The position numbers and the translations under genes were made by a program. Positions 5,288 through 27,788 of a stretch of DNA of 64,000 nt are shown here, one piece after another (the first letter of the stretch is position 1; each line of letters begins with the position of its first letter). The notes under the pieces were generated by a model. It saw only the letters and a list, made by a program, of their open reading frames with translations. It was not told the origin of the DNA and did not search any database. Source of the stretch: Sediminicoccus rosea (lineage in GTDB: Bacteria; Pseudomonadota; Alphaproteobacteria; Acetobacterales; Acetobacteraceae); contig NZ_CP137852.1 in NCBI RefSeq assembly GCF_033547095.1, positions 1,295,501 to 1,359,500 of the forward strand, given 5' to 3'.

Positions 5288-5290
5288 CGA

Positions 5291-6967: not shown

Positions 6968-6984
6968 GCTGGTGCAGCCCTCCC

Positions 6985-7629: not shown

Positions 7630-7645
7630 GCGGGATCTCCTCGGA

Positions 7646-8548
7646 TCAGGTGTTCGGGGTGTCGGATGGGGCGGCCAGCGCGAGCGGCGGCGGAGGCAGT
7701 GCGAGACGTTCGGCGACGGGGCGCGCAGGGCCTCGGATCTTCTCGAACAGCCGGCCGAGATGCGGCTCTTCGACCAGGTCGAGCCGACCGCTGCGGTCCT
7801 TCGCGGGATAGCCCCAGGGGTTCAGCGTCTGGCAGATCAACGAGCGGCGGAGCGCGCCGGCCTCGTCTTTGATCGCCGCCAGCGTGAGCACCTCATCGAC
7901 GATGCCGGGCAGCTCGAGGCCGGTCTTGCTGCCGTCGATCTGCGGCACGAAGACCTTGCGGTTGAAGTCGTCGAGCTTCTCGTCGAGGATCCCGACGAAG
8001 ATGATGTTCTTGCCGCGCGTGTGCTGCAGATGGGTCAGCCAGGCGATCATCTCGCGCCCGTGCAGACCGTAGGCGCCGCGGATGTCCGGCTTGCCGGTCT
8101 TCTCCGCGAAGGCCTCGGGCTGGCCGCGGCACCACTGGAAGCAGAGGCGGCCCGCGACGGTGATGCTGTCGATGAACACCGTCTCGTAGCGGGTGAGCAG
8201 GGCGGGATCGCCGAACTGCTCGCAGACGGCGGCGTAGTGCGCCGGGGAATAGGGCTGGTCGTCGCGCAGCGCCGGGTTCGGGCCGCCTATGAAGGCGGCG
8301 AAGTCGCGGCATTCCTGCCAGGTGCGCGGGCGGATCGTGTCGCCACCCCAGCCCTCGACCGCGAGATCACCGGCCTCGAGGTCCATGAAGAGCGTGGTGC
8401 TGGCGAGCAGGGTCCAGAGCAGGCTGGTCTTGCCTTGGCCGCTCCCCCCAAAGATGCAGGCTTTGACACCGCGAGGCTCAGCCTGGCGCTCGTCGGCAGT
8501 GATAATCCGGAAGCCGCGCCCCGGCGCCTGCGCGAAAGGGGCGCTCAT
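7646..8548 (-). CDS. Sak4-like RecA-fold ATPase
   Basis: The protein has 300 residues. Walker A GGSGQGKTS lies at 34-42, a second acidic strand TLFMDLEAGD at about 52-61, and Walker B YETVFIDS at 121-128. Size and layout match the phage nucleotide-binding AAA_24/Sak4 family, a minimal RecA-like core that assists single-strand annealing together with an SSB. The gene for a probable SSB follows immediately, and Cas4-like and RuvC-like nucleases are in the same operon, so together they could form a complete recombination pathway. The stop of the preceding gene overlaps the start as ATGA. A packaging or plasmid ATPase role cannot be excluded. Confidence 0.7.
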   Translation of the reverse strand: MSAPFAQAPGRGFRIITADERQAEPRGVKACIFGGSGQGKTSLLWTLLASTTLFMDLEAGDLAVEGWGGDTIRPRTWQECRDFAAFIGGPNPALRDDQPYSPAHYAAVCEQFGDPALLTRYETVFIDSITVAGRLCFQWCRGQPEAFAEKTGKPDIRGAYGLHGREMIAWLTHLQHTRGKNIIFVGILDEKLDDFNRKVFVPQIDGSKTGLELPGIVDEVLTLAAIKDEAGALRRSLICQTLNPWGYPAKDRSGRLDLVEEPHLGRLFEKIRGPARPVAERLALPPPPLALAAPSDTPNT

Positions 8549-12243: not shown

Positions 12244-12465
12244 ATGCTGGGGGTGGCAAGTGAACCCCTCCGCCCTGCGGCCAATCCCCACCTCCCGCCG
12301 CACCTCCGCGAGGTCTGCAGCATCCTGGCCGCCGGCCTCGTGCGGCTGCGGAGCCGCGCTGCCGAGGAAGCTGCGCGCGAGGCTGCTGAGCTGGGAGAGC
12401 GCGGCCTACACTTCCCGTCCCCTCAGCGCCTGGATGCGAACCGGACCAACCGGAGACCCGCATGA
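12244..12465 (+). CDS. Small conserved protein of the recombinase module
   Basis: The protein has 73 residues with the core LREVCSILAAGLVRLRSRAA followed by a His/Pro/Arg-rich tail. I recall near-identical small proteins directly before DUF2924 and recombinase genes in many alphaproteobacterial genomes. The stop overlaps the DUF2924 start as ATGA (12462-12465), which supports coupled translation. It is one amphipathic helix with a basic face. Its role is unknown; a recombination directionality factor is an attractive but unproven idea for a small basic protein in this position. Confidence 0.65.
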   Translation: MLGVASEPLRPAANPHLPPHLREVCSILAAGLVRLRSRAAEEAAREAAELGERGLHFPSPQRLDANRTNRRPA

Positions 12466-12968
12466 CACGCGCCACCAAATCCAAACCCGGCACCCCGCCG
12501 GCGCCGACCATCCCCGCCATTCCGCCGGCCGACGTGCTGGTCCGGCTGGCTGCGTTGAAGACAACCACCACGCCGGACCTGAAGCAGCAGTGGCGGGAAC
12601 TCTTCGCGGCGGAGCCGCCTCCCTACAACCGGCGCTTCCTGGAAAGCCGCCTGGCCTACCGGATCCAGGAGCTGGCCTATGGCGGCCTGAAGCCACAGAC
12701 CATCCAGCGCCTCGAGGCCCTGGGCGAACAACTCGATGGCGGCAACCCCGTCCTCCGCCGTATCCGCGGCGACGACAAGCCGATCACCGGCACGCGCCTG
12801 ATCCGCGAGTACCAGGGCGTCGAGCACAGCGTGACCGTGCTCCACGACGGCTATGAGTATCAGGGGCGCCCCTACCAGTCGCTTTCGTCCATCGCGCGGG
12901 CGATCACCGGCACGCGCTGGAATGGCTGGCTGTTCTTTGGCCTAAAAAACCGGAGGGGCACGGCATGA
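12462..12968 (+). CDS. DUF2924 domain protein
   Basis: The protein has 168 residues. The DUF2924 pattern is visible: DLKQQWRELFAAEPPPYNRRFLESRLAYRIQELAYGG (split here, about 42-78), followed by LIREYQGVEHSVTVLHDGYEYQGRPYQSLSSIARAITG. The second half resembles the DUF2924 beta domain that ends in SIARAITGTRWNGWLFFGL. Members almost always precede a large serine recombinase, as here with an ATGA overlap at 12965-12968. The function is unknown but is probably tied to recombinase action or control. Confidence 0.85.
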   Translation: MTRATKSKPGTPPAPTIPAIPPADVLVRLAALKTTTTPDLKQQWRELFAAEPPPYNRRFLESRLAYRIQELAYGGLKPQTIQRLEALGEQLDGGNPVLRRIRGDDKPITGTRLIREYQGVEHSVTVLHDGYEYQGRPYQSLSSIARAITGTRWNGWLFFGLKNRRGTA

Positions 12969-14317
12969 AGCGCAAGCCAGCCGCCGACGCTGCGATGCCG
13001 GCCACGGTAAGGAAGATCCGCGCCGCCGTTTACACGCGCAAGTCGAGCGAGGAAGGGCTCGACATGGAGTTCAACTCGCTCGATGCGCAGCGCGAGGCCT
13101 GCGAAGCCTATATCACCAGCCAGCGGTCGGAAGGCTGGGTGCTGGTACCGGACCGCTACGACGATGGCGGCGTGTCTGGAGGCACGCTGGAGCGGCCTTC
13201 ACTGCGCCGCCTGCTGGCCGACATCGAGCGCGGGCTGATCGACGTGGTGGTGGTCTACAAGATCGACCGGCTGTCGCGCGCGCTGATGGACTTCGCCAAG
13301 CTGGTGGAGGTGTTCGACGCGAACAGCGTGACCTTTGTGTCAGTGACGCAGAGCTTCAACACGACGACCAGCATGGGGCGGCTCACGCTGAACATCCTGC
13401 TGAGCTTTGCCCAGTTCGAACGGGAGGTCATCGGCGAGCGCATCCGCGACAAGGTGGCGGCGTCACGGGCGCGAGGAATCTGGATGGGGGGCTTCGTGCC
13501 ACTCGGCTACGACGCCAAGGACCGCAAGCTGCTGGTGAACGAGGCGGAGGCGGGACTGGTGCGCCGAATCTTCGAAGGCTTCGTCGAGACGGAATCCGGC
13601 ACGAAGCTGGTTCAGGCGCTGCGTGCCGAGGGCGCCGCCACGAAGCGCGGCCGCGCCTTCACCAAGAGCGACGTGTATCGCGTGTTGAACAACCGGACCT
13701 ATCTCGGCGAGGCGATGCACAAGGGGAAGTCGCATCCCGGCGAGCATGCCGCCATCGTGCCGCAGGCGATGTGGGACGCGGCGCACGCCCTGCTCTCGAT
13801 CAGCCCGAAGACACGCGCCAACCGCACCCGCTGCCAGACGCCTTCGCTGCTGCGCGGGCTGATCTTCGGCAGCGACGGGCGGGCCATGTCGCCCACCCAC
13901 GCGCGGGGGCGCCGCGGCCAGCAATACCGCTACTATGTCAGCCAGTCGGTGCTGAAGGGCGGCGCCGCGGACGGCCCGGCCATCGCGCGCATTTCCGCCG
14001 CGGAGATCGAGGGCGCGGTCATCGCGCAGGTCCGGGGGCTGCTGCGCCAGCCGGAGGTGGTATTGGGCGCCTGGCGCGCGGCACGGGCCGCGGCGCCGGA
14101 TATGACGGAAGACGAGGCTCGGCTGGCGCTGGAGCGATTCGACCCGCTGTGGGATGAACTCTTCCCCGCAGAGCAGGCGCGCGTCATTCGGCTCCTGGTC
14201 GACCGCGTGGACATCGGGGCGGGCGGCGCCGACGTGCGGCTCAAGCTGGAGGGGCTGGCGAGCCTGGCGCGGGACCTGGCGGCAACGCCGGTCGAAACCG
14301 CGAGGGTTGCAGCATGA
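12965..14317 (+). CDS. Large serine recombinase (resolvase family)
   Basis: The protein has 450 residues. The N-terminal resolvase domain has AVYTRKSSEEG, with the catalytic serine at S27 or S28, then DDGGVSGGTLERPSL, VVVYKIDRLSRAL and SFAQFEREVIGERIRDK. The recombinase domain follows from about 165 with GFVPLGYDAKDRKLLVN and VLNNRTYLGEAMHKG. Such enzymes integrate and excise phages and islands through short att sites by serine-linked double-strand breaks. At 450 residues it is shorter than most phage integrases, and a zinc ribbon like that of phiC31 integrase is not obvious. It is the only recombinase gene in the window and is coupled to both neighbours. Confidence 0.92.
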   Translation: MKRKPAADAAMPATVRKIRAAVYTRKSSEEGLDMEFNSLDAQREACEAYITSQRSEGWVLVPDRYDDGGVSGGTLERPSLRRLLADIERGLIDVVVVYKIDRLSRALMDFAKLVEVFDANSVTFVSVTQSFNTTTSMGRLTLNILLSFAQFEREVIGERIRDKVAASRARGIWMGGFVPLGYDAKDRKLLVNEAEAGLVRRIFEGFVETESGTKLVQALRAEGAATKRGRAFTKSDVYRVLNNRTYLGEAMHKGKSHPGEHAAIVPQAMWDAAHALLSISPKTRANRTRCQTPSLLRGLIFGSDGRAMSPTHARGRRGQQYRYYVSQSVLKGGAADGPAIARISAAEIEGAVIAQVRGLLRQPEVVLGAWRAARAAAPDMTEDEARLALERFDPLWDELFPAEQARVIRLLVDRVDIGAGGADVRLKLEGLASLARDLAATPVETARVAA

Positions 14318-14703
14318 CCGGCGCCGCGCAGATGCTGACCGTCCGGGTGCCGCTGGCGGGACGGAAGCCGCGGGGCGGGCGGAAGCTGATGATCGCGCCT
14401 GTCAGCACCACGAACCGGGGGTCCTCGACTGCGGACATCACGTTGGTGAAGGCGCTGGCCCGGGCGTTCCGGTGGCGGCGGATGATGGAGGCGGGCCGCT
14501 ACGGCACGATCAACGAGCTGGCGGCGGCGGAGAAGATCAACTCGTCCTATGTCTCGCGCCTCCTACGCCTAACGCTGCTGGCGCCTCACGTTGTCGAGGC
14601 GATCCTGGATGGGGGACAGCCCGAAGGGATGACGCTGCCCGGGCTGATGGAGCCGTTTCCGGTGGAGTGGGAGCAACAGATTAGCATCGGCGCTTGGGAC
14701 TAG
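14314..14703 (+). CDS. HTH protein downstream of recombinase
   Basis: The protein has 129 residues. The central part reads as a helix-turn-helix: TLVKALARAFRWRRMMEAG, then INELAAAEKINSSYVSRLLR as the recognition region (about 86-105 in spirit of ParB-type HTH), then LAPHVVEAILDGGQP. I recall this protein as a regular partner directly after such recombinases. ATGA overlap (14314-14317) couples it to the recombinase gene. A DNA-binding role, perhaps control of recombinase expression or direction, is likely. Confidence 0.7.
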   Translation: MTGAAQMLTVRVPLAGRKPRGGRKLMIAPVSTTNRGSSTADITLVKALARAFRWRRMMEAGRYGTINELAAAEKINSSYVSRLLRLTLLAPHVVEAILDGGQPEGMTLPGLMEPFPVEWEQQISIGAWD

Positions 14704-14870: not shown

Positions 14871-17675
14871 ATGCTGGGACTAAGCCTTCGGCTCGAATTT
14901 CGAGGGAAAATACTTCAGGGGACCCAGATTGACCTGACAAACCCCAAGAAGACCGGCGCTACCCAGCTTCCGGCGCCAGATTTTCTAGAGATCACCTACC
15001 CCACCACCGACCTAATCGGCATGCTGCGTGCTGCCGCGCCGGGCCAAAGCCATCCTATAGCGCTCATGGGCGAGCGCGGCCTTGGCAAGTCGCACCTGCT
15101 GGGTGCGCTCTATCACGCGCTGAAAGACGGAACGGCGGCCTCAGCATGGCTGTCGCATTGGGCTCACGTGTTGGGCGATGCGTCTCTGGCCAGCTTGCCG
15201 CTTAGGTCGGGGCTGGAGGTCGTTACAGCAAGCCTGCACCAGCAGCGCTTTCCTTTCCTTTGGGATGTGCTCTTCGATCAACATCCGGACGGCAAAACAT
15301 ACCGCGGCGCGTGGGAACATGGCGGCGGCCCCAAGACGCAGGTCCCGTCGATGGACCTGCTGCTCAAGATGTTCGAACAGCGCCCAACGGCATTGATCCT
15401 CGACGAGTTCCAGACCTGGTTCGATGGTCTTGTTGATGCGCCGAACAAGCCTCACAAGACCTGGGCATTCAACTTCATCCAAATCCTCTCGGAGATCAGC
15501 GCGCAGAGGCCTGACATCTTCCTGCTTGTCATTTCCATTCGGAACGGCGATTCGGATGCGTTCAAACAGGTCCAGCGCATCAACCCGGTTCTGCTCAACT
15601 TCAGTGGCGCCTACGCGAAGCGCGATCGGCGCCGGTTGCTGCTGCACCGGCTCTTCGAGAACCGCTTGCAGGTGGCTGACACTGACATCAATGCGCTCAC
15701 CGCCACACACATAGCCGAGTACCTCCGGCTCGCCGAAATCCCATCTTCACACCATGCCGCAGCGCGCCAGGACTTCATCGAGGCATGGCCATTTGCGCCG
15801 CACCTGCTGCAGCTGCTCGACGACCAGATCCTCGTCGCCACGTCCGCGCAGTACAATCGCGATCTCGTCAAAATCCTGGCGGGCCTGTTCAAAAGCCGCG
15901 GGAGCGTGATTCCCGTGCTGACCGCGGCTGACTTCCAGATCGACAATGAGGAAAGCGGCATCGGTCCACTCCTGGACTCGGTGAACAACCCGCAGCATCG
16001 CGCCCTTCGAGACAAGGCGCGCCGCAACCTCGAGGCCGTGACGGAAGCGGTAGATAATCCCGCCAAAGACGTCCCCCATTTGGATGACGTCATCGCATCG
16101 CTGTGGTTGCGTTCCATCGCTGCAGAAAAGACGGTGGGCGCCACGCGGACGCAGCTTCAGATCGATTGCACGCGCGACGTCGTCCTCGATGCCAACGCCT
16201 TCCCAGCCGAGCTCGACACCATTCTCGACAACAGCTTCAACCTTCATGAGGTTGGCGATCGGCTTGTCTTCCGTGAGGAGGAGAACGCCGAGGCGAAGCT
16301 GAAGGCAGCGGCACGCAACCCGAAGCTCTTCGCCGGTGGGGAGGACGAGGCCCATCTCGCGAAGGAGCTCCGCTACGTCATTTACGGCGATCCTGGCGTC
16401 CCCTTGCCATTCCGCGTTATCGCTCTGCCCAAGACCTGGCTCGCAGACCCCTGGACCGCGCTTGCCGACGAGGACAAGCCTGGGATGTGGGACAACCGCA
16501 TCCCTATCCTCGTGCTGCCGGAGACGCCGGATCGCCTCAGTGAGCGGCTGGCTCAATGGCTGAAGGATCATCTCCAGCAGCGCCGGAACGCCGTGCGCTT
16601 CCTCTTGCCGCGCGCCGATGCACCACCGTTGTTTACTGACCCGACACTGCTCTTCCACGCACGTGCCGTGGTCAAAGCGACGGAATGGCAAGGCCAGGGC
16701 CCCGAGTACGGCAAGCTGCGGACCAAGTACCAGAAGCTGCTGCGGGACGCGCTGAAGGACCGCTACGACCGCTTCGCCATCCTCGCGGCCTGGGACAATC
16801 AGACGCCCGCGAAGTCTCGCTTCACCGAGGAAAAACTGAAGGTCCGCGGTAGCGAAATTCCGAAGGCGATGGACGAAGTCATCGCCACTGACCTGTTCGA
16901 GCCGGAAGCCTTCGCCGATTACGCTATCGAGGCTGCCAAAGGGGCGGCCTCGGTCAAGAAGGTGCTCGACGAGCTTAAGGAGCCGCGCCCAGCGCCGGCC
17001 GATACGATCCCTTGGCTCGGTGACGCGCTGATGAAGGAGAAGCTCATCTCCGTCTGCGCGCAGGGCAAGATCACGATCAACGTGCAGGATCGGGAGCGCC
17101 TGGAGCGTCGGCCCGGCGAAGAGATCAAAGACGCCTACACGCGCCTGCGCGGCAAACTGCCGGACGGCAAGCAGTTGGAGGAGGTCATCCTCGGCCTGCC
17201 GGGCGCAGGCGCTGCCACCCATGGCGCGGCACCGCAGCCCGGCACGGGCAATGGCGCCACGCCCGGTGCAACGCCGCCGCCTGGGGCAGGGCCTGGCGGC
17301 GCCGGTACTGCCCCGCCACCAGGCGGCAACCCTGGCGGAACGACGTCACCGCCGCCCGGTGGCGGCACCCCGCAGCCCGGCTTCGGCGAAGGCCCCCCTG
17401 GCAACCTCTTCGGTAACGGCGGCGCCGGGATCTTCGGTGGCAGCGGCACCGCACCGCCAAAGCCCCGGATACGGCTGGAGGCCCCCAAACCCACATCGGG
17501 CCTCAACCTCGCTGGCCAGCTTGAGATGTGGTCGATCACACCCGCCACGCCGGTCCAGTCCGTGACTATCACGCTCGAGGCCGCGACCGGGGCTCAGCTC
17601 AAGAAGCTGCTGGAGAAACTGCCGGACGGGATGATCTATGGCCTCGCGCTGGATCGCGAGGACGGCCCAGCATGA
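14871..17675 (+). CDS. DUF499 ATPase, BrxC/PglY-like
   Basis: The protein has 934 residues. Walker A GERGLGKS lies at 67-74 and Walker B TALILDEFQTW at 173-183, followed by a sensor-like LLVISIRNGD. The early Walker A, the large helical body and the DEFQTW motif match the DUF499 family, to which the large ATPases of BREX (BrxC) and Pgl (PglY) systems are related. A Gly/Pro-rich linker (about 782-863) leads to a small C-terminal domain (about 864-934) with TLEAATGAQLKKLLEKLPDG. It is the first gene of the defence operon and overlaps the PglZ start as ATGA. In BREX the ATPase is needed for phage blocking; the exact role here is inferred. Confidence 0.8.
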   Translation: MLGLSLRLEFRGKILQGTQIDLTNPKKTGATQLPAPDFLEITYPTTDLIGMLRAAAPGQSHPIALMGERGLGKSHLLGALYHALKDGTAASAWLSHWAHVLGDASLASLPLRSGLEVVTASLHQQRFPFLWDVLFDQHPDGKTYRGAWEHGGGPKTQVPSMDLLLKMFEQRPTALILDEFQTWFDGLVDAPNKPHKTWAFNFIQILSEISAQRPDIFLLVISIRNGDSDAFKQVQRINPVLLNFSGAYAKRDRRRLLLHRLFENRLQVADTDINALTATHIAEYLRLAEIPSSHHAAARQDFIEAWPFAPHLLQLLDDQILVATSAQYNRDLVKILAGLFKSRGSVIPVLTAADFQIDNEESGIGPLLDSVNNPQHRALRDKARRNLEAVTEAVDNPAKDVPHLDDVIASLWLRSIAAEKTVGATRTQLQIDCTRDVVLDANAFPAELDTILDNSFNLHEVGDRLVFREEENAEAKLKAAARNPKLFAGGEDEAHLAKELRYVIYGDPGVPLPFRVIALPKTWLADPWTALADEDKPGMWDNRIPILVLPETPDRLSERLAQWLKDHLQQRRNAVRFLLPRADAPPLFTDPTLLFHARAVVKATEWQGQGPEYGKLRTKYQKLLRDALKDRYDRFAILAAWDNQTPAKSRFTEEKLKVRGSEIPKAMDEVIATDLFEPEAFADYAIEAAKGAASVKKVLDELKEPRPAPADTIPWLGDALMKEKLISVCAQGKITINVQDRERLERRPGEEIKDAYTRLRGKLPDGKQLEEVILGLPGAGAATHGAAPQPGTGNGATPGATPPPGAGPGGAGTAPPPGGNPGGTTSPPPGGGTPQPGFGEGPPGNLFGNGGAGIFGGSGTAPPKPRIRLEAPKPTSGLNLAGQLEMWSITPATPVQSVTITLEAATGAQLKKLLEKLPDGMIYGLALDREDGPA

Positions 17676-18673
17676 CGCTGCCCCTTCCGCTGTTGCGCCA
17701 GCTCCAGGAAGCGACACCGGCGGAAGCCTGGGCTGCGATCACGGAGCATGCACTTCATGTCTGCGACACGGCCGGCCAGGGCAAGCCGTTCGATGCGGCC
17801 GCGCGGCTGCGCGACGAGGGCTTGCGCGCGCTCGACGCCTGGATGGCCGGTGCCGGTTGGGATCTCTGGGCGGAGTTCGGCGCCGCCATGCCGCGCACGG
17901 CTGATCGCCTGATCGAATGGTGGGGTGCAATTCCACCAGGTGCCGGTGCCGCGGTGCTGATCCTGGACGGGCTATCACTGCGCGAGCTTCCGCTGCTGCG
18001 TGAGGGCGCGGCAGCTCATGGCTTCGCTGTCGCCAGCGTAGAGGCGACGGGCGCTGAACTGCCGGGGGACACCAATGCCTTCGCCCAGGCCTTGGGGGTG
18101 AGCAGCCGCGGCACGCTCGCCAACAACCACCCGCCTGGCGGTTTTCGTCTCGGTGGAGCCACCACCGAGGTGGCCGACCTGCCCTGGGCGGATTGCGCCG
18201 CGCTGGTGAAAGCGGAGCCGCGGTGGCTGTTCTGGCACGCATGGCCCGACACCCGGTTCCACAGCGGCAGCAGCTTCCAGGCCCTCGCCAAGAACGCCGA
18301 TGAGACCTTCGCCGACGCAGCCTTCTGGGCCTTCCTGCGCCGCCTCGCCACGGGACGGCGGCTGCTGGTCACCTCCGACCACGGCTACGCCCATATCGGC
18401 AGCTTTCAGGACACCCACGACGACCAGAAGACGTGGCTCCGTGGCGTCTTCGGCGGGGGGCGTACGGCCGCGGATGGCGAGACGGGCGCGTGGTCCCCAC
18501 CGCTTGCCCTGGCGGTGGATGGCCGGCAGTCACGGGTACGCCTGCCCCTCGGCCGGCGGAAGTGGCCGGTGCCGGGCGGCAACGCCAGCCTTAGCCATGG
18601 TGGTCTGACGCTGCTCGAAGCCTTGTCGCCCTTCATTGAACTCAGACTTCAGGATTCTTCGAATGCCACGTGA
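17672..18673 (+). CDS. Minimal PglZ-type phosphatase-fold protein
   Basis: The protein has 333 residues. Alkaline-phosphatase-superfamily metal motifs are visible: AAVLILDGLSLRE with D99, and VTSDHGYAHIG with D236 and H237. This pair defines the PglZ domain shared by BREX and Pgl systems. BREX PglZ proteins usually exceed 600 residues, so this is close to the bare catalytic domain. The residue after LDGL is S, where many PglZ proteins have R, so the nucleophile assignment is open. It is coupled by ATGA to the DUF499 gene and overlaps the methyltransferase start by 11 bases. In the family PglZ is essential for defence, but its substrate is not established. Confidence 0.75.
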   Translation: MTLPLPLLRQLQEATPAEAWAAITEHALHVCDTAGQGKPFDAAARLRDEGLRALDAWMAGAGWDLWAEFGAAMPRTADRLIEWWGAIPPGAGAAVLILDGLSLRELPLLREGAAAHGFAVASVEATGAELPGDTNAFAQALGVSSRGTLANNHPPGGFRLGGATTEVADLPWADCAALVKAEPRWLFWHAWPDTRFHSGSSFQALAKNADETFADAAFWAFLRRLATGRRLLVTSDHGYAHIGSFQDTHDDQKTWLRGVFGGGRTAADGETGAWSPPLALAVDGRQSRVRLPLGRRKWPVPGGNASLSHGGLTLLEALSPFIELRLQDSSNAT

Positions 18674-21600
18674 AGGCGCCACTGTTTCGCCCAAAGACAA
18701 ACTCGCCCAGGAGATTGCGAAGGCTGTCGGTGCCGGCCGCCCCATGGCGGTGGAGACCGTAGACTTCTCCGATCCCAATCGACCGAAGACCTGCATCGAG
18801 GTGGATTTCCCGATCCTGGCGATCAATCAGATCGCCCAGATTGAAGGGAATGCCGGCAAGCCGATCTACCAGATGTCGAAGTGGTGGGCGCGCCGACGGT
18901 CCTCGGTGTTCCGCGCCATGCTGCTGGCCAGCGCGATGAAGGCGCCGGACGACCCGGCCCAGGCCGCGAAGGCAGTGTGGGAGGCCTACTACGCCAACCA
19001 CCAGAAGAAGGGTGCGCTGAAGCACCTGAAGGTGGCGGACATCTTCATGGGCGGTGGCACCACGCTGGTGGAGGGATCGCGCCTTGGCATGCAGATGTCT
19101 GGCGTGGATCTCAACCCTGTAGCCTGGTTCGTCGTGAAGCAGGAATTCGCGAAGCCTGACCTCGACGCGGTGAAGCGGTTGCTGGCCGATGTCGAGGCCG
19201 AGGTGAAGCCGCAGATCATGCCCTTCTATGCCTGCGAAGGTCCGGGCGGGGAGAAGGGAGTCTGGACGCGACTGGCCGATGGCAAGGTCATGGGTGACGA
19301 CTTTGATCCGCTGAGGCTGACGCCGGATGAGCGGAAAGGCTTCTCCTACGCCGGGCCGGAGGCGATTTACACCTTCTGGGCGAAACATGGGCCTTGTCAG
19401 GTGACTGGCTGCGGTCACCGCACGCCGATCATGTCCAGCAACATCATGGCGGTGAAGACGCTGACGGTGAAGCGCTGGCCACACGTGTGTGTTGCTTGCA
19501 GCCAGGCTTTCGACATTGAAAACGAGCCGGCGCGCATGGCGCCTGATGCACCACTGGCGCTCGCGCCTGGCGAATGCGCTTTCGCGGTTCCGGACCGGGC
19601 TGGACGGGTGAAATGTCCGCATTGCGGCAATGCTGAGCAGATCAAACTGAACGGCAAGGGAGAGAACAAGAAAGTCGAGCTCGCGCTCATCGTCGATCCG
19701 AACTGGATAACGGGTGCGCCTCAGTTCGATGCGGCTGGTCAAGCTTACGGAGGTTCAGCGCAAGATGACGCGGCCAGCACACGGCGCTGGGATGCCGTGC
19801 GCGCAGAAAATTCTGGACTAATTGAATTGCGCGGTATGTCCGTCTTTGAGCGGACAGATAAGAAAACTGGAATCAAGAAGACTGTAAAAGATTGGCCCGA
19901 AGTATTTATTCATCCGCTTACGGGCGAAGAAATTCGTGTTGGCGACGCTGGCGGTACTGTGCCGAAGAAATCTGCCTACACGTGTGCCGCTTGCGGCACG
20001 GTGCAAGACGTTTTAGCGACGGTGAAAGCATCTAAAAAGACCGGACCGCTGGGAGGATATGCTATTCAGGGATACTCGCCCGCGCTAGCGAGGAACGGTG
20101 CCGCCTACAACGGAAGGTTTTTCCTTCCCTTCGATGTTGCGGCGCAGCAGCGCTACGATGCCGCTGTAGCTGAATGGGCGTCCCGTCGAGACGGTGACCT
20201 CGCCGAATGGTGGCCTCGTTCGGAGCTGCCCTACGGCTTCATGACGCACCATCTCCAAGGCGGTGTACCAAATCATGGCTTCACGCACTGGTGGACCATG
20301 TTTAGTCCGAGACAGCTGCTGGTCCATACTCAATTGCTTAAAGCTATAATGACTGTTGGAAAATATGATAGTGAAACTCGCGAGTACGTTTTGGGCGCAT
20401 TCCAGCAGTACCTTCGCAATCAATGCCTATTCTCATTTTGGCATGTGGCGCGCGATCACTATGCTCCAGCCCTTTCCAATAATAATTATCATCCAAAATC
20501 GACTGTTATCGAAGTTGGCGTATTTTCGCCAGTCGGGTACGGAGTTTGGCGATCTGCTTGGGAGCCATTGATCGAGGGACGCGCATGGGCGGACGCGCCA
20601 TGGGAACCAGTCGTTGCCGAATATCTGAAGCGCCAGAAACCCGAGCTTGCAGCGGCGATCAGCGGCAAAAGCTTCCGCGTTGAGCCCGGCGATGCGTTAG
20701 GTTCTGCGAAAATCGAGGCGCGATCTGCAACCGACTTATCAGATCGACATGACTCGTCTGTCGATATCGTTGTTACCGACCCTCCTTTCGGCGGACTTTT
20801 ACATTATTCAGAGCTGGCAGATTTTTTTCACGTGTGGCTACGGCTTGCTCTAAAGAATCAGTATCCACGAGAATTTCAGCCAGAGTATACGCCGAAGACG
20901 TTGGAAGCGGTCGCGAACCGCGCGCGTCAGCCTGAAGAAGGCGAAGCAGATGCTTTTTACCAGCGGCTGCTCACGCAGGCCTGGCGCGAGGCGCATCGCG
21001 TTCTGAAGCCCGGTGGCACCCTCGCATTTACCTTCCACCATAGCGAGGACGATCCCTGGGTCGCCGTACTCGAATCACTCTTCGATGCCGGCTTCTATCT
21101 GGAAGCCACCTATCCCATCCGCTCTGATGAGACGAAGGGCGAGGGCGAATTCGGTAGCAAGACGATCGAGTACGACATCATCCATGTCTGTCGGAAGCGC
21201 ATAGAAGCGCCCACGCCGGTGTCTTGGGCGCGCATGCGCCGCGAGGTGCTTCAGGATGTGAAGCAGCTGCAGAACCTCCTGGAGGGGCATGCGCAGGAGG
21301 GGCTTCCGGCGGCCGACCTCGCGGTCATCAAGCGAGGCAAGGCGCTGGAGTATTTCTCCCGCCACTATGGCCAGGTGTTCAAGAACGAGGGCGAAGCGAT
21401 CAGCGTCAAGGAAGCGATCCTTGGCATCAATCAGATCATCGATGAGGGCGGCAACACAGCCGATATCCCGCCCGTCGATGCAGAGCCCTATACGCGCCAA
21501 TTCCTCCGCATCTTTAACGACAGTGCCGAGCAGAAGCGCGATCAGATGCAGAAATTCCTCCGCGGCACAGGCAGCACGCCTGATGAATTCGAGACACGCG

Positions 21601-21950
21601 GATGGTGCACCGAGAAAGCCAAGGTCTACCATATGACGCCACCGCTTGAGATCGCGCAGTCGTGGCATAAGCGCCAGAAGCGAAAGCTCGATAGCGATTA
21701 CGATCAGGCGATGGTCCTCATCGGTGCTTGCCACACCGGCAGCGGCCTCGACGCGAACGACACGCTGCGCAACCTGAACTTCAAGCCGCACCCGGCGCTC
21801 CGCCCGCTGCTGGAATGGTTCGAGCGTCGCGGTCACAGCCAGACCGTTCGTGACGCCGCGAAGCTGGCGAAGATGCGCTTCGAGGCTTGGCAGAACGCCC
21901 AGCCCAAGAAGCCGGCCAATGCGCAGATGTCGCTGTTCGGGGAGAGCTAG
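18663..21950 (+). CDS. DUF1156 DNA methyltransferase (PglX-like)
   Basis: The protein has 1,095 residues from the ATG at 18663. The DUF1156 signature KPIYQMSKWWARRRSSVFR lies at 66-84. An AdoMet-binding motif I follows (ADIFMGGGTTLVEGSRLG, 125-142), and the catalytic motif IV VTDPPFGG lies at 704-711, a DPPY-type variant with Phe typical of adenine methyltransferases of this group. Cys pairs near residues 244-280, 317-320 and 439-442 suggest zinc ribbons. DUF1156 enzymes are the modification subunits of type 3 BREX and related systems. The central part (about 380-765) has clearly lower GC than both ends and includes motif IV, so specificity and catalysis may have been exchanged by recombination. 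Confidence 0.85.
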   Translation: MPREGATVSPKDKLAQEIAKAVGAGRPMAVETVDFSDPNRPKTCIEVDFPILAINQIAQIEGNAGKPIYQMSKWWARRRSSVFRAMLLASAMKAPDDPAQAAKAVWEAYYANHQKKGALKHLKVADIFMGGGTTLVEGSRLGMQMSGVDLNPVAWFVVKQEFAKPDLDAVKRLLADVEAEVKPQIMPFYACEGPGGEKGVWTRLADGKVMGDDFDPLRLTPDERKGFSYAGPEAIYTFWAKHGPCQVTGCGHRTPIMSSNIMAVKTLTVKRWPHVCVACSQAFDIENEPARMAPDAPLALAPGECAFAVPDRAGRVKCPHCGNAEQIKLNGKGENKKVELALIVDPNWITGAPQFDAAGQAYGGSAQDDAASTRRWDAVRAENSGLIELRGMSVFERTDKKTGIKKTVKDWPEVFIHPLTGEEIRVGDAGGTVPKKSAYTCAACGTVQDVLATVKASKKTGPLGGYAIQGYSPALARNGAAYNGRFFLPFDVAAQQRYDAAVAEWASRRDGDLAEWWPRSELPYGFMTHHLQGGVPNHGFTHWWTMFSPRQLLVHTQLLKAIMTVGKYDSETREYVLGAFQQYLRNQCLFSFWHVARDHYAPALSNNNYHPKSTVIEVGVFSPVGYGVWRSAWEPLIEGRAWADAPWEPVVAEYLKRQKPELAAAISGKSFRVEPGDALGSAKIEARSATDLSDRHDSSVDIVVTDPPFGGLLHYSELADFFHVWLRLALKNQYPREFQPEYTPKTLEAVANRARQPEEGEADAFYQRLLTQAWREAHRVLKPGGTLAFTFHHSEDDPWVAVLESLFDAGFYLEATYPIRSDETKGEGEFGSKTIEYDIIHVCRKRIEAPTPVSWARMRREVLQDVKQLQNLLEGHAQEGLPAADLAVIKRGKALEYFSRHYGQVFKNEGEAISVKEAILGINQIIDEGGNTADIPPVDAEPYTRQFLRIFNDSAEQKRDQMQKFLRGTGSTPDEFETRGWCTEKAKVYHMTPPLEIAQSWHKRQKRKLDSDYDQAMVLIGACHTGSGLDANDTLRNLNFKPHPALRPLLEWFERRGHSQTVRDAAKLAKMRFEAWQNAQPKKPANAQMSLFGES
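19790..20960. other. Low-GC mosaic block inside the methyltransferase gene
   Basis: Within this stretch AT-rich codons are frequent (runs such as AATAATAATTATCATCC near 20478), while both flanks of the same gene use GC-ending codons almost throughout. The frame stays open, so this is not decay. The edges are gradual and were placed by eye. A segmental exchange with a lower-GC homologue would explain it. Confidence 0.65.
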
Positions 21951-21953
21951 GCG

Positions 21954-22457
21954 GTGCCGGTCGTCGAGCCCTGGGCACGCAGCGGCCTGACTTTGCTCTG
22001 GGGCGCCGAGGCCCTGCGCGATCTCGCCGAGCCGAGTCAGATTCTGCCGCTGCGAGCGCTCTTCGGCTGGCGCGGTGAATGGCCCGCGGACCTTCCGGCC
22101 AATGAGGGGCGGACGCTCGTCGCCACCGGGTTGGAAGCGACCCTGGATTGCCTGGTGCAGGATGATGCCGAGGCGTGGCTCGCCTTCGACCTGCGCGACC
22201 TCGTTCTCGGATTTCAGCAGGCCTATGAAGGGCAGCGTGCCCTCGTGCTGTGGCTGCCCAGCGGCCAGCAGCGCGTGGCGTGTGACCCGGCGACCGACGC
22301 CTGGCTTTGGACGACAACAGAGAACACCAAGCTGCCCCTCGGCCGACTGCTGTTCTCTGGCGCTGCCTCTGATGCGCGCGCCATCTCTCCGCCCGGTTGG
22401 CGCGGTGCGAAAGAAGGCCCCGGATTGATCGGCCTACATCAGGCGCGGCTCTCCTGA
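21954..22457 (+). CDS. Unknown 167-aa protein of the defence operon
   Basis: The protein has 167 residues from a GTG three bases after the methyltransferase stop; the stop overlaps the helicase start as TGATG. It contains GLTLLWGAEALRDLAEP, DCLVQDDAEAWLAFDLRDLVLGFQQAYEG and LVLWLPSGQQR, a mixed alpha/beta pattern rich in Trp and Asp. Single-gene neighbours of this size in BREX-type loci (BrxA, BrxB, BrxF) are accessory factors, but I cannot match it to any of them. Its tight placement between the methyltransferase and helicase suggests an adaptor or specificity protein. Confidence 0.6.
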   Translation: MPVVEPWARSGLTLLWGAEALRDLAEPSQILPLRALFGWRGEWPADLPANEGRTLVATGLEATLDCLVQDDAEAWLAFDLRDLVLGFQQAYEGQRALVLWLPSGQQRVACDPATDAWLWTTTENTKLPLGRLLFSGAASDARAISPPGWRGAKEGPGLIGLHQARLS

Positions 22458-25261
22458 TGGGCGAAACGCTGGAGATGACGCCTGGCGTGCGGGTGTCGCA
22501 TGCGGAGCTGGGCGAAGGGGTGGTGCTGGAGGCGTCGCGGGACGGCTACGTCCGCGCCTTCTTCGGCGCCGGCGAGCGCCGCGTGCCGCTTGCCGCATTG
22601 CGTCCTGCGCTCTCGCGGGCCGATCGAATCCTGGCCAATGTCGCCGGCACACCGGAGCGATTGCGCACCATCCGCCTGACCTTGCAGGCGCATATGCTGC
22701 CCCTGATGGAAGGCGCGGCCGCGCTGACCTCGGCGCGGATTGACCTGCTGCCTCACCAGGTCGTGCTGACCCATCGCGTGGCCACTGCCAGCCCGCGCCG
22801 CTTCCTGATCGCCGATGAGGTTGGCCTGGGTAAGACCGTCGAGACGGCGCTGATTCTGCGCGAGTTGGCGAGCCGTGGGGAGCTCGAGCGCGCCCTGATG
22901 GTGGTTCCCGCCGGCCTGGTGAACAACTGGCACCGCGAGCTGAATGAGGTGTTCGGTCTCGACTTCGAGGTCTTCGGTAGCGAAGGCGATGTGACCGACC
23001 GCAAGACCAATGCGTTCGCCAAGCACCACCGCCTGATCGCCAGCATCGACACGCTGAAGCGGCCCGCGCGCGTGAAGCGCCTGCTGGAGGCGCCGCGCTG
23101 GGACCTCGTGGTCTTCGATGAAGCGCATCACCTGACGGCGGTCCAGGAAGGGAAGCGTGTCCGCCGCACGGAAAACTACAAGCTGGCGGAGGCGCTGAAG
23201 GACCACGCACGAGACCTGCTGCTGCTCTCTGCCACGCCGCATCAGGGGCACCATTTCCCCTTCTGGATGCTCATTCAACTGTTGAACCCGACCCTGTTCC
23301 GCAGCGTGGACGAGATGGTGACGCAGCGGCACCGGCTTTCTACCGTGGTGTTCCGGCGGACCAAGGCTGATGCATGCCGACCGGATGGCTCGCCGCTCTT
23401 TGCTAGGCGCTGGGTGCACACCGAATCCTTCGTGATGTCCGACGCGGAGCGAAAATTCTACGAGGCCTTGCAGCGCTTCCTTCAGGACGGCTTTGACCTG
23501 GCCAAGCGCCAGGGCGGCAAGGGCCGGGCGCTCGGCTTCCTGATGGCGATCTTCCAGAAGATCGCGGCGTCGAGCTTCGCTGCTGTGCGCCGCACCCTGC
23601 GTCGCCGGATGCTCGCGCTGACAATCCATGAAGCGGTGCTGCGCGACCGCGCCCTGGATATCGATGGCCGCGACTCCCTGTACGGCGAGGCGCGGGCACT
23701 GATTCACGAGGAATACGGGCTGCCGCAGGATCCCGTTGGCCGCGGGCAGGTGGACCAGGTACTGGCCGACCTGAAGCTCCGGCTGGTGCGCCGCCTGGAC
23801 AATGAGGAGGAGGCGCTCGCGGAGGCCTCCGATCCCTACGGGAACGAGGCTGCCGCTCAGTCGGCGGAAGACCTCGCTAGCCTCGCTGTGTCGGTCCACC
23901 TGCCGGAGGAGCGCCTGCGCATCGCTGAGATGCTGGCGACCTTCCCAGCGGCGCGCGAGACCAAGATTGCGAAGCTGTTGGCCGGCCTCGGCGTGCTGTG
24001 GCGACAAAATCCGCAGGAGAAGGTGGTTATCTTCGCCACCTACCTCGGCACCGTCGAGCAGATCGCGCGCGACATCGAGGCAGAGTATCCGGGCCAAGGT
24101 GTCGCCGTGCTCCGCGGCGGCGACCACGGCGCGAAGCTGGCGGCAGAGCGCCGGTTTCGGCAGAAGGACGGCCCGCGGGTTCTGGTCTGCACCGCGGCGG
24201 GCCGGGAGGGCATCAACCTCCAGTTCGCCCGCGTGCTGTTCAACTTCGATCTGCCCTGGAATCCGATGGATGTGGAGCAGCGCATTGGGCGCATCCACCG
24301 CTACGGCCAGCGCGACACAGCGCAGGTCTACAATCTCATCCTGTCGGACACGATCGAGGGACGCATCTTCCTGATGCTCGATCAGAAGCTGACAGAGATT
24401 GCGCGCGCGCTCGGCAAGGTGGACGAGGCCGGCAATGTCGCTGAGGATTTGCGGGCGCAGGTGCTGGGCCAGCTGTCGGAGCGGCTGAACTACGACAGGC
24501 TGTACCAGGCGGCGCTTTCGGATCCGGAGTTGCGGCGGACCAAGGTCGAACTCGACGCAGCGCTGGCGAATGCCAGCGAGGCGAGGGAGGTTGTGTTCGA
24601 GCTTTTCCAGGACCTCGATGGCTTTAGCTTGGAGGATTACCGGCCGTTTTCTGACCTTGCCGGCAGTGTGGGCCGTATCCACGACTTCCTGGCTGCCGCT
24701 CTGGCCGAGCAGGGTTGGACACTAAGGAAGGCGGCGGATGGACTGTTCGAGGTCACCGACCAAGCGGCCACGACGGTGGCGCGTTTCACGGACGACCGCG
24801 AACGTGCCATGGCGACGGATGGCCTGGGCCTCCTCGGGTTGGACCATCCCCTTGTCGCCAGTCAGCTGACGAAGTGGCGGAGCACGCCGCCCGAACGCTT
24901 GGGCTCCAGCGTGCGCCAAGCTGGCGGCGACGCGGCCGTGCTGTGCTGGTGGTTGTTCGAAGCGTCAACAGCGCAGGGAGACCGGAAGTCGCAGGTGCTC
25001 GCCCTTGCGATGGGGCTCAGCGGTGGGCGGTCGGCACCCCTGGAGCGGTTGCCTGAGCGGATGCTGGATCGGCCGCCAGCGGATGGCTTTCTCGACCTTG
25101 CTGAGCGTCGGCGCTTCCTGGCGGAGTTCGCAGAGCCAGCATTGCAACGCGAGGTTCAGCATCGTGGCCTGCTTGCAGCGGGGGGCTCATTTTCGGCGGA
25201 GCTCCTGGGCTGGCTGGAGGTAGGTGCTGACGACCTGCTAGGCGAAAATCAGGCCGGATGA
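22457..25261 (+). CDS. SNF2-family helicase of the defence operon (DrmD/HepA-like)
   Basis: The protein has 934 residues. A short N-terminal beta domain (about 7-52) includes VRVSHAELGEGVVLEAS and resembles the nucleic-acid-binding starts of RapA-type proteins. SNF2 motifs follow: ADEVGLGKT (119-127), FDEAHH (220-225), LLLSATPHQG near 256, and QRIGRIHRYGQ near 613. The C-terminal 250 residues are unassigned. SNF2 translocases serve in DISARM (DrmD) and some BREX variants, where they move along DNA to survey or block phage genomes. Type 3 BREX instead uses an Lhr-like helicase, so this helicase type sets the operon apart. Overlaps couple it to both neighbours. Confidence 0.87.
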   Translation: MGETLEMTPGVRVSHAELGEGVVLEASRDGYVRAFFGAGERRVPLAALRPALSRADRILANVAGTPERLRTIRLTLQAHMLPLMEGAAALTSARIDLLPHQVVLTHRVATASPRRFLIADEVGLGKTVETALILRELASRGELERALMVVPAGLVNNWHRELNEVFGLDFEVFGSEGDVTDRKTNAFAKHHRLIASIDTLKRPARVKRLLEAPRWDLVVFDEAHHLTAVQEGKRVRRTENYKLAEALKDHARDLLLLSATPHQGHHFPFWMLIQLLNPTLFRSVDEMVTQRHRLSTVVFRRTKADACRPDGSPLFARRWVHTESFVMSDAERKFYEALQRFLQDGFDLAKRQGGKGRALGFLMAIFQKIAASSFAAVRRTLRRRMLALTIHEAVLRDRALDIDGRDSLYGEARALIHEEYGLPQDPVGRGQVDQVLADLKLRLVRRLDNEEEALAEASDPYGNEAAAQSAEDLASLAVSVHLPEERLRIAEMLATFPAARETKIAKLLAGLGVLWRQNPQEKVVIFATYLGTVEQIARDIEAEYPGQGVAVLRGGDHGAKLAAERRFRQKDGPRVLVCTAAGREGINLQFARVLFNFDLPWNPMDVEQRIGRIHRYGQRDTAQVYNLILSDTIEGRIFLMLDQKLTEIARALGKVDEAGNVAEDLRAQVLGQLSERLNYDRLYQAALSDPELRRTKVELDAALANASEAREVVFELFQDLDGFSLEDYRPFSDLAGSVGRIHDFLAAALAEQGWTLRKAADGLFEVTDQAATTVARFTDDRERAMATDGLGLLGLDHPLVASQLTKWRSTPPERLGSSVRQAGGDAAVLCWWLFEASTAQGDRKSQVLALAMGLSGGRSAPLERLPERMLDRPPADGFLDLAERRRFLAEFAEPALQREVQHRGLLAAGGSFSAELLGWLEVGADDLLGENQAG

Positions 25262-25461
25262 CGACGCTGTCGATTATGCCCAGCGAGGCGGCGTGGTGCG
25301 CCCGAGCTGTCCGCTACTACGACGGTGACCGGGCAGGAATCTTGACAGTCTTGCCTGAGTTTTCGCTGGTGCCCTTCAATGCGGGGGCGGACGAGCCGGC
25401 TAGCTTCGCGCATCGGCTGATCCCAGCAATTGATCGCCTGCGGCAAAGGGACAACCAATGA
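25258..25461 (+). CDS. 67-aa unknown protein of the defence operon
   Basis: The protein has 67 residues, with ATGA overlaps at both ends (25258-25261 and 25458-25461). It contains VRYYDGDRAGILTVLPEFSLVPF and ASFAHRLIPAIDRLRQR. Such coupling on both sides is strong evidence that it is translated. I know no family. It carries no signal peptide or metal site. It may be a small subunit bridging the helicase and the HD protein, or an inhibitor of the HD enzyme. Confidence 0.6.
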   Translation: MTTLSIMPSEAAWCARAVRYYDGDRAGILTVLPEFSLVPFNAGADEPASFAHRLIPAIDRLRQRDNQ

Positions 25462-26828
25462 GCAAGCGTCTGCGGGACCCCATCCACGGGCTGATTGTGT
25501 TTGATATCGAGAACCAGGAGGTGGATCGGCTCGCCTGGCGGCTGATCGACACGCCCGAATTCCAGCGCCTGCGTCGTATCCGCCAGCTAGGCGTTTCGGA
25601 ATTCACCTTCCCTGGCGCCGTGCACACGCGCTTCGCGCATTCGATTGGCGTGTTCCACGTCGCCCGCACGCTGGTCGGCGTTATCCGGCGTGAGATGACC
25701 CGGAACGGCGAGATGCCCGATGAGAGGAAATGTGACGTCGCGCTTATCGCGGCCCTTCTGCATGATCTTGGTCACGGTCCCTTCAGCCACACCTTCGAGG
25801 GCGTTCAGGAAGCGCGCGGCGTCAAAAAGCGGCACGAGCAGTGGACGGCCGAGATCATCCGCAACGAGACCGGGGGCATCCGGCCCTTACTCGAAGCATT
25901 CAGTCCGGGCTTCACCGAGAAGATCGCCCTCCTTCTGGAGAAGGAGGACCCGGAGGACATCTACCACGCGGTGGTCTCCAGCTCCTTCGACGCAGACCGG
26001 CTGGATTATCTTCGCCGCGACAAGCTGATGACGGGCACCGGTGCGGGCGGCATCGACTTCGATTGGCTGATCGAGAACATCCGCGTCGCCCCCATCGTAC
26101 TCGATGTGCCGGATGCGGAGGATGAGGCGTCGCCCCGAAAGGTGCCGACCTTTTGCCTCGACCGAAAGGCGCAGCCGGCGGCGGAGCAGTTCCTGCTCGC
26201 CCGCTACACGCTCCACGAGCAGGTCTATTTCCACAAGACCACGCGCTGCGTTGAAAAGATGATCGGTCGGCTGTTCCGCGGCATCGCGGGCGCGGCCGTC
26301 GCGGGAGAGGAGGCCGCGCGCCGCACTGGCTTGCCGCCCCGGCATCCGCTGCTGCGTTTTTTCGGTGAGGGGGGCGAGACGGTCGAGAACTATCTCGCAC
26401 TCGACGACATGCTGGTGCTCGGTGCCCTGGAAGTCATGACCCAGGCCGAGGACCTCGACATCAGCGGCATGGCGCGGAGGCTGCGTGGGCGGAGCCTTTA
26501 CAAGACGCTCGACACAGCCGAGTTCGGCGCCGACAAGGGCGCACAGGCTATGCGGAAACGGCGAATCGAGTTGCAGTTCAAGGATCAGATAAGCCAGGGA
26601 ACAGTGATTCTTGATGATAAGGCGGCCATCGGCATCTATTCGGAGATCGGTGGGGATGAGGAGCGGATGCACAAGCGGCTGCACATCCTTGATGGCAATT
26701 CGCCCAAGGAAATCAGCACGCTTTCGCTACTCATCAAGACACTAGAGACCAAGAAGCCATTTATCCGTTTCTATTTTTCTGAGACAGCGGATCGCGACAA
26801 AGCACGAGGTACGAAGGGGAGAACATGA
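25458..26828 (+). CDS. HD-domain phosphohydrolase, COG1078 (SAMHD1/YwfO-like)
   Basis: The protein has 456 residues. The family start RLRDPIHGLI is followed by FQRLRRIRQLG, HTRFAHSIGV with H61, and the HD pair LLHDLGHGPFSH (H102, D103); a further acidic residue lies in SSFDADRLDYL near 178. These form the metal centre of the HD superfamily. COG1078 includes B. subtilis YwfO, and the related SAMHD1 and dGTPases hydrolyse dNTPs. In a defence operon, depletion or sensing of nucleotides is a reasonable idea. The following gene is YwgA-like; ywfO and ywgA are also neighbours in B. subtilis, so the pair is probably functional and was recruited as a unit. Confidence 0.82.
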   Translation: MSKRLRDPIHGLIVFDIENQEVDRLAWRLIDTPEFQRLRRIRQLGVSEFTFPGAVHTRFAHSIGVFHVARTLVGVIRREMTRNGEMPDERKCDVALIAALLHDLGHGPFSHTFEGVQEARGVKKRHEQWTAEIIRNETGGIRPLLEAFSPGFTEKIALLLEKEDPEDIYHAVVSSSFDADRLDYLRRDKLMTGTGAGGIDFDWLIENIRVAPIVLDVPDAEDEASPRKVPTFCLDRKAQPAAEQFLLARYTLHEQVYFHKTTRCVEKMIGRLFRGIAGAAVAGEEAARRTGLPPRHPLLRFFGEGGETVENYLALDDMLVLGALEVMTQAEDLDISGMARRLRGRSLYKTLDTAEFGADKGAQAMRKRRIELQFKDQISQGTVILDDKAAIGIYSEIGGDEERMHKRLHILDGNSPKEISTLSLLIKTLETKKPFIRFYFSETADRDKARGTKGRT

Positions 26829-27346
26829 TGCAGGAGCGAGAGAAAGCGGTGGCTGACATCGTAGCAGCCACAGGTGGTCGGCTCGTCAGCCGCGTGCGCT
26901 TGCAGAAGCTCGCCTATCTGCTGGATCAGCTCGGAGCGCGGAGTGGCTTCAATTATGTCTACCACCATTACGGTCCGTATTCGCGGGACCTCGATGCCGC
27001 GATTTTCGACGCGGAGGCCGATAAACTCGTCGAAGAGCGCATCGAGCACCGGCAGAGTGACGGCGCGCGCTACAGCATCTTCGTCGCACTCAGCACCGCC
27101 GATTCTCCTGGGTTCTCGTACCTAAGTGATCCCATGCTGCGAGAACGTGCGCGCGAAATGGCTGCGAGGCCGGTCACTGTCCTGGAACTCGCCGCTACGG
27201 CGCATTGGCTGGCGCATGCGGAGAAGGTCGATGACTGGCGCGCGGAGATAGTCCGGCGGAAGGGAACGAAAACGGGTGCTGGGCGGCTTGAGGAGGCGCT
27301 GAAGCTGCTCACGGACCTCGGTTTGCCTCCTGCCGCAGCGGCGTGA
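26825..27346 (+). CDS. YwgA-like protein (COG3432)
   Basis: The protein has 173 residues from the ATG at 26825 (ATGA overlap); a second ATG follows directly. The motif RLVSRVRLQKLAYLLDQLG (19-37) followed by VYHHYGPYSRDL (45-56) matches the YwgA and SocA/DUF4065-like fold, in which a conserved RLQKL-helix and YGPYS loop occur. SocA-type relatives act as antitoxins or proteolytic adaptors, so a regulator of the HD enzyme is plausible. It is the last gene of the operon. The link to the HD gene mirrors the ywfO-ywgA neighbourhood of Bacillus. Confidence 0.7.
   Translation: MMQEREKAVADIVAATGGRLVSRVRLQKLAYLLDQLGARSGFNYVYHHYGPYSRDLDAAIFDAEADKLVEERIEHRQSDGARYSIFVALSTADSPGFSYLSDPMLRERAREMAARPVTVLELAATAHWLAHAEKVDDWRAEIVRRKGTKTGAGRLEEALKLLTDLGLPPAAAA

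Positions 27347-27788
<442 letters not shown>

Follow-up and report, generated by a model that had tools for sequence, protein, structure and literature searches.

Which defence system is encoded by the eight genes at positions 14871-27346 of a 64,000-nucleotide stretch of Sediminicoccus rosea DNA (contig NZ_CP137852.1, positions 1,295,501 to 1,359,500; hereafter the window), and do all eight belong to it? An earlier note on this DNA had regarded them as a BREX/Pgl-related operon, neither canonical type 3 BREX nor DISARM, carrying an added pair of HD and YwgA-like genes, and knew of no described system with this gene set. Scans with PADLOC, NCBIfam and Pfam models bore out the former view; the latter no longer holds for the first five genes. 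Since its gene set matches that of the Type-3 BREX-Related (BR) system (Rakesh & Krishnan, NAR, January 2026, PMC12839542), the five-gene core is, judged by its sequences, a Type-3 BR system and thus already known. It is the HD-YwgA addition that is new. A core followed by a two-gene HD-YwgA cassette describes the eight genes better, because the pair was seen in none of 82 other full loci, 58 of which extend 1.4 kb or more past the helicase, and is found apart from BR systems elsewhere. We consider it fairly probable that the locus is a five-gene Type-3 BR anti-phage system, probably residing on an island, with a separate cassette depleting deoxynucleoside triphosphates (dNTPs) in a slot behind the helicase.

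Gene organization of the operon

All eight open reading frames (ORFs) were confirmed on the plus strand and are joined, as the earlier note had it, by overlaps or a 3-base gap. The first encodes a BrxC-like DUF499-type AAA+ ATPase of 934 aa (14871-17675). It overlaps by four bases the gene for a stand-alone PglZ-like phosphoesterase of 333 aa (17672-18673), whose improved start is the ATG at 17672; a GTG-initiated ORF from 17528 (17528-18673) is a mere upstream extension of the same gene. An 11-base overlap leads to a DUF1156 adenine-type DNA methyltransferase, HmaB/PglXI-like, with its start improved to 18663 (18663-21950), and the 3-base gap follows, then the gene for a 167-aa core protein with a GTG start (21954-22457). 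This shares one base with the gene for a BrxH/HmaA-like SNF2/Swi2 helicase, now started at the ATG at 22457 (22457-25261). Three 4-base overlaps then connect a 67-aa ORF at the junction between helicase and cargo (25258-25461), a dNTP triphosphohydrolase-like HD-domain protein of 456 aa (25458-26828) and a YwgA-like protein of 173 aa, homologous to the DarG C-terminal domain (26825-27346).

The standing of the 67-aa ORF as a gene is doubtful. It belongs to no family in the Pfam, NCBIfam or PADLOC scans, its best match beyond its own genome, among 201 loci, comprises 29 residues in locus L097 (E 0.003), and it looks like a junction remnant.

Proteins of the five-gene core

In the Pfam scans, the DUF499 ATPase matched PF04465 (18.7 bits, E 4e-4, under the 23-bit cut-off) and AAA_16 (E 1.2e-4, also under cut-off), and no PADLOC model matched it. 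Its translation contains the Walker-like motifs GERGLGKS and LILDEF, and it is 50-51% identical to plasmid proteins annotated as DUF499 whose loci share the core gene order. The methyltransferase exceeds the cut-offs of both PF06634 (DUF1156, 29.4 bits) and PF01555 (N6_N4_Mtase, 35.6 bits) and matches the PADLOC model of HmaB with an E-value of 6e-42.

For the PglZ ORF (17528-18673), Pfam, NCBIfam and PADLOC returned no match. Profile-profile comparison of the PglZ-like protein with PF08665 proteins gave a modest match (E 3.7e-4, probability 36%), and residues D99, S102, D236, H237 and H309 are invariant in all 93 aligned sequences. PDB profile searches with this protein and with the 167-aa protein yielded no usable match. 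The AlphaFold2 model of the latter (pLDDT 91.1) was matched by Foldseek mostly to RecA/AAA folds, weakly (best E 0.16), and no Walker A was seen in its sequence; on its modelled fold it is probably an inactive STAND/RecA-like P-loop domain, equivalent to BrxB/BrxF. The earlier note had counted brxA and brxF as missing. No such PADLOC models are among the matches listed for the eight proteins, but the role of BrxF is probably taken by the 167-aa gene.

The helicase contains SNF2 (PF00176) and Helicase_C (PF00271) domains; its Pfam matches are to helicase domains only, with no detectable nuclease domain. Its assignment in the earlier note to a DISARM/HepA type proved not to be specific: in PADLOC, HmaA (E 5.3e-92) precedes BrxHI/BrxHII (7.4e-91) and DrmD (2.9e-77), while DrmD, the best NCBIfam model, stays under its cut-off.

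The core in other genomes

A profile of the PglZ-like protein detected 135 relatives in genome contigs, the best 80 of which were kept, and 7 were taken from viral contigs. With three plasmid loci and four genome stretches these make 94 loci, or 93 after removal of a duplicate (L013, identical with L017); the window itself is excluded. Of these 93 PglZ-anchored loci, 82 contain all five core genes, and their order never varies, so the succession of the first five genes in the window is not a matter of chance. Ten of the 11 incomplete loci end at a contig edge (L016, L032, L035, L052, L059, L062, L064, L066, L086, L092); the remaining one, L039, continues for 10 kb after PglZ yet contains only a partial methyltransferase.

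Among the 82 full-core loci are plasmids of Aminobacter, Tenderia and Klebsiella, and the hosts presumably extend over several classes of Pseudomonadota, Planctomycetes, Chlorobi, Chloroflexi and Acidobacteria. In the order to which the window belongs, a PglZ relative was found in five of 395 genomes, its own included. The closest relatives of the window are L017 (PglZ 82%) and L097 (PglZ 92%).

Relation to described defence systems

As set out in the text of PMC12839542 and restated in PMC13326643, Type-3 BR comprises a DUF499 ATPase, a DUF1156-type methyltransferase, a nuclease-free helicase, a stand-alone PglZ and an inactive STAND protein, and its backup nucleases are lacking or kept in limited instances only (PMC12839542). 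The window shares the ATPase, the methyltransferase and the nuclease-free SNF2 helicase, and probably the PglZ and the small inactive-STAND gene, for which the profile and fold matches are modest to weak; the HD-YwgA cassette is extra. The main text of PMC12839542 mentions no HD domain, phosphohydrolase, dNTP, SAMHD1, YwgA, DarG, dGTPase or COG1078. The published descriptions, as far as their text was available, are based on comparative genomics, and no experimental test of Type-3 BR was found in them.

Other systems share parts of this gene set. Hma and Type-1 and Type-2 BR possess, like the window, a DUF499 ATPase together with a homologous helicase and methyltransferase (HmaA and HmaB in PADLOC), but their helicase bears a C-terminal nuclease or an HKD nuclease accompanies it, and PglZ is absent. 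Membership in Hma/Type-1 BR was rejected, the window helicase having no detected nuclease domain and a PglZ-like gene being present. Type 3 BREX follows the same logic of ATPase, methyltransferase, helicase and PglZ-like protein; it was rejected because neither brxA nor a canonical brxC, brxF or pglZ model occurs among the PADLOC matches listed for the eight proteins (for the methyltransferase the best 25 of 32, for the helicase the best 25 of 55). DISARM was rejected as well: the likeness is confined to DrmD/DrmA-type similarity of the helicase, with no drmB, drmC or other DISARM gene among these matches.

Genes carried in Type-3 BR operons

Mechanical ORF calls show an additional ORF of more than 100 aa within the core in 23 of the 82 full loci, and in 37 of the 82 the helicase is followed closely by ORFs on its own strand. 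From these slot proteins ten were chosen for Pfam and five of the ten also for PADLOC. They include SIR2 with HerA (L004), IetA with IetS (L041), an AAA_21 ATPase (L036), Schlafen-AlbA (L044), GmrSD (L099) and, in PADLOC only, PD-T7-3 (L070). IetAS and PD-T7-3 are presumably stand-alone defences, going by their PADLOC names. Two further slot proteins, L043:11002-11946 and L025:11002-12279, matched nothing in Pfam or PADLOC and are candidate new defence genes. The presence of other defences in these positions suggests that the operon tolerates slot cargo and that HD-YwgA fills one such slot in the window.

When HD and YwgA profiles were run over the 93 loci, neither gene was found, barring a marginal HD match in L021 (E 8.6e-4) located far upstream on the other strand. 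The pair is the unusual addition that the earlier note took it for: the PglZ-anchored search recovered the five-gene order and in none of the 82 other full loci the HD-YwgA pair. In 24 of the 82 this could not be fully checked, because less than 1.4 kb is left behind the helicase. The two closest relatives carry other genes there: L017 has no HD-YwgA, and L097 has a DUF5677-like gene and, beyond it on the other strand, a GmrSD gene.

These data bear on the idea that all eight genes are inseparable parts of a single new system that cannot work without dNTP hydrolysis. The overlaps, or 3-base gap, running through all eight ORFs speak for it. Given that the pair was seen in none of the 82 other full loci, of which 58 continue for 1.4 kb or more past the helicase gene, and that the closest relatives have different genes in its place, we regard such a system as very improbable.

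HD and YwgA-like proteins

The HD protein exceeds the Pfam cut-offs of PF01966 (HD) and PF19276 (HD_assoc_2). Its best solved relatives are 2o6i, 3irh and 4lrl (E 1.7e-44), which we take to be the dNTPase EF1143 of Enterococcus; SAMHD1 entries stand lower in the list. Residues H61, H102, D103, H106 and D178, presumably metal-binding, are invariant in all seven sequences compared. From these sequence relationships we infer a dNTP triphosphohydrolase of the EF1143/SAMHD1 type.

The YwgA-like protein is matched by the NCBIfam model NF048014 of DarG (E 4.6e-8, under cut-off). Profile A5 found 7yk3_B of the DarTG complex (E 5.9e-7), and Foldseek placed the same 7yk3 on top for its AlphaFold2 model (pLDDT 90.8; E 6e-5, probability 1.0, TM 0.56/0.52). 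Profile-profile comparison with the DarG C-terminal domain gave an E-value of 4e-16 at 98.7% probability, and seven of ten proteins found by the YwgA profile are full DarG over the NCBIfam cut-off. An origin from Panacea (DUF4065) was not supported in a profile comparison with five genomic sequences (probability 0.9%, E 0.064), itself weak because L194, and possibly others of the five rows, is probably in the wrong reading frame; DarG-C compared with the same five gave 18% and E 0.0013.

According to the text of PMC11481870, which credits Deep 2023, the C-terminal domain of DarG blocks the DarT active site. By analogy with this homologue, we infer that the YwgA-like protein may be an inhibitor of HD. 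It might instead activate or scaffold the enzyme, for the homology to DarG suggests protein binding only and the sign of the effect is not fixed by experiment. Because the characterised homologue masks an active site (PMC11481870) and the dNTPase of Clover is restrained by its partner's product (PMC12265719, in the text available), we hold activation to be rather unlikely.

Clover, in which the dGTPase CloA is restrained by a nucleotide from its partner CloB, a nucleotidyltransferase (PMC12265719, as far as its text was available), is the nearest functional parallel: two genes, an HD dNTPase effector and a restraining partner. The window pair differs in having no nucleotidyltransferase, its partner being the DarG-C/YwgA-like protein, and its HD protein is nearer to 2o6i/3irh than to anti-phage dGTPase models, unlike that of Clover. 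Membership in Clover was rejected, the neighbour of HD being DarG-C-like and not CloB. Membership in DarTG, whose DarT-masking DarG domain is homologous to the YwgA-like protein, was rejected too, as this protein consists of one 173-aa domain and its gene adjoins that of HD, and no DarT or macrodomain match was obtained among the eight proteins.

HD-YwgA pairs outside Type-3 BR operons

Pairs were sought in 385, 398, 48 and 73 genomes, partly overlapping, and surroundings were checked for the fetched matches. HD lies directly upstream of a compact YwgA in ten genomes besides that of the window: L131/L161 (HD truncated by the contig end), L132, L133, L134, L139, L157, L158, L213, L214 and L215. 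In L139 (303-8659) the pair is embedded in a Type-2-like BR operon, between the DUF499/DUF7680 and DUF1156 genes; the methyltransferase of this operon is broken, split over three frames. In L158 (6086-17512) it follows a recombinase module of the window type and stands just upstream of HsdM/HsdM/HsdS/HsdR, a type I restriction-modification system. Methylation-based neighbours therefore occur in two of the ten other pairs, a count without matched control for association.

Nine neighbours in L132, L133, L134 and L161 gave no defence match in Pfam or PADLOC, and PADLOC matched none of ten proteins near pairs in L132, L134, L139, L158, L161 and L166. Neighbours in L157, L213, L214 and L215 were searched with the window and L139 genes. 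The pair in L133 lies beside methylmalonyl-CoA mutase, and L213-L215 have neighbours that look ordinary by eye.

Among 27 HD-bearing viral contigs, ten have an adjacent YwgA (L164, L165, L166, L168-L173, L186). The order is reversed, YwgA preceding HD, in L172 and L173, which are alike in score, and L163 ends just past HD. Close YwgA relatives in viral contigs numbered none by single-sequence search and one by profile A2. YwgA-like ORFs without an HD match were seen in L135, L159 and L160, and further YwgA-like matches in G677, G560 and G700.

Such a distribution raises the question of whether the pair has any working link to the Type-3 BR core at all. It could be an independent selfish or defensive toxin-antitoxin-like cassette, as suggested by the pairs with no recognised defence neighbour (L131/L161, L132, L133, L134, L157, L213, L214, L215; neighbours partly tested), by those on viral-collection contigs and by Type-3 BR slots holding systems that PADLOC lists alone (IetAS, PD-T7-3). 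The four-base overlaps in the window, suggesting co-transcription with the core via the doubtful 67-aa ORF, and the second embedding in another DUF499 operon (L139) argue for a link; we nevertheless give independence a chance only slightly short of even. That the pair is a housekeeping one of nucleotide metabolism, of the type in which Bacillaceae combine HD with a YwgA-like gene, and was passively recruited, seems to us unlikely. A Priestia plasmid with HD and then a YwgA-like gene among ordinary genes fits this, as do the surroundings in L133 and L213-L215, but the pair is patchy, with ten other occurrences in all the genomes searched, and turns up both on viral-collection contigs and next to a recombinase module.

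With considerable reserve, we also put forward HD-YwgA as a possible undescribed mobile toxin-antitoxin-like anti-phage module, in which a DarG-C-type protein would restrain a dNTPase of the EF1143/SAMHD1 family, a task that in Clover falls to a nucleotide signal. The module may have been taken up separately by Type-3 BR (window), Type-2-like BR (L139) and type I restriction-modification (L158) as a backup effector firing when the host system is inhibited. A literature search, covering few subscription papers and no supplements, found HD-YwgA nowhere presented as a defence module.

Island and integration site

A putative integration module precedes the operon on the plus strand (12462-14703), composed of genes for a DUF2924 protein (12462-12968; PF11149, E 1e-50), a serine recombinase with Resolvase, Recombinase and Zn_ribbon domains in Pfam (12965-14317) and a 129-aa protein (14314-14703). 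Downstream of the operon, a 289-bp direct repeat (27424-27712), the proposed right island end, includes the 3' end of a tRNA-Ser(CGA) gene on the minus strand (27699-27788), the proposed integration site. The left copy, 91.0% identical, lies at C1:1253510-1253798 of the same genome, 41.7 kb before the window begins. Going by these paired repeats, the operon probably forms the right-hand end of a mobile serine-recombinase island, some 69 kb long, at tRNA-Ser.

Operon genes and recombinase module have a GC content of 0.59-0.69, against 0.70 in the leftmost 9 kb and 0.71 to the right of 28 kb. The left end of the proposed island, within which these left 9 kb fall, is unmarked by GC. The recombinase module, whole or in part, is found upstream of Type-3 BR in L017, L024, L073, L083, L098 and L101, and tRNA-Ser downstream of it in four of seven chosen loci (L017, L098, L101, L073). 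A 14-bp repeat flanks the L017 island; no repeat of that size was seen around the window. Two repeat copies near tRNA-Ser(CGA) also occur in the relatives G241 and G234. On the minus strand, positions 1801-8548 of the window contain AAA_25, ResIII helicase and AAA_24 genes, with a weak PD-(D/E)XK match under cut-off.

Discussion

We favour the reading of the locus as a Type-3 BR system with a separate cassette, which builds on the gene content, order and homologies observed, on the position of the pair in the slot and on its occurrence apart from BR systems elsewhere. According to the published model, the methyltransferase would mark the cell's own DNA; invading DNA without the mark would be recognised by the ATPase together with the helicase and the 167-aa protein, and damaged by PglZ. 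The HD dNTPase would starve phage replication of dNTPs, and the YwgA-like protein would bind it and keep it inactive until a phage infects or restriction fails, much as DarT is masked by the homologous DarG domain. HD-YwgA would thus act as slot cargo, a backup module behind Type-3 BR.

Several points weigh against this. The identities of PglZ and of the inactive STAND protein stand on weak profile and fold scores, and the Type-3 BR assignment was made by gene content, order and homology. The pair was seen in none of the 82 other full Type-3 BR loci, even though 58 of them leave sufficient sequence behind the helicase, and its link to BR operons is confined to two loci, the window and L139. 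Eight of the ten other genomic pairs are without a recognised defence neighbour, the Priestia plasmid region has HD and YwgA-like genes in ordinary surroundings, and no published activity, interaction or phage test of HD-YwgA was found.

With this core, a system known from comparative genomics gains a further natural representative. The slot pattern extends the published view that Type-3 BR is mostly devoid of backup nucleases, and slot contents offer a simple place to look for new defence modules. If the proposed reading is true, one operon would join DNA marking and restriction with dNTP starvation, and an enzyme-inhibitor role would be shared across the YwgA/DarG-C family.

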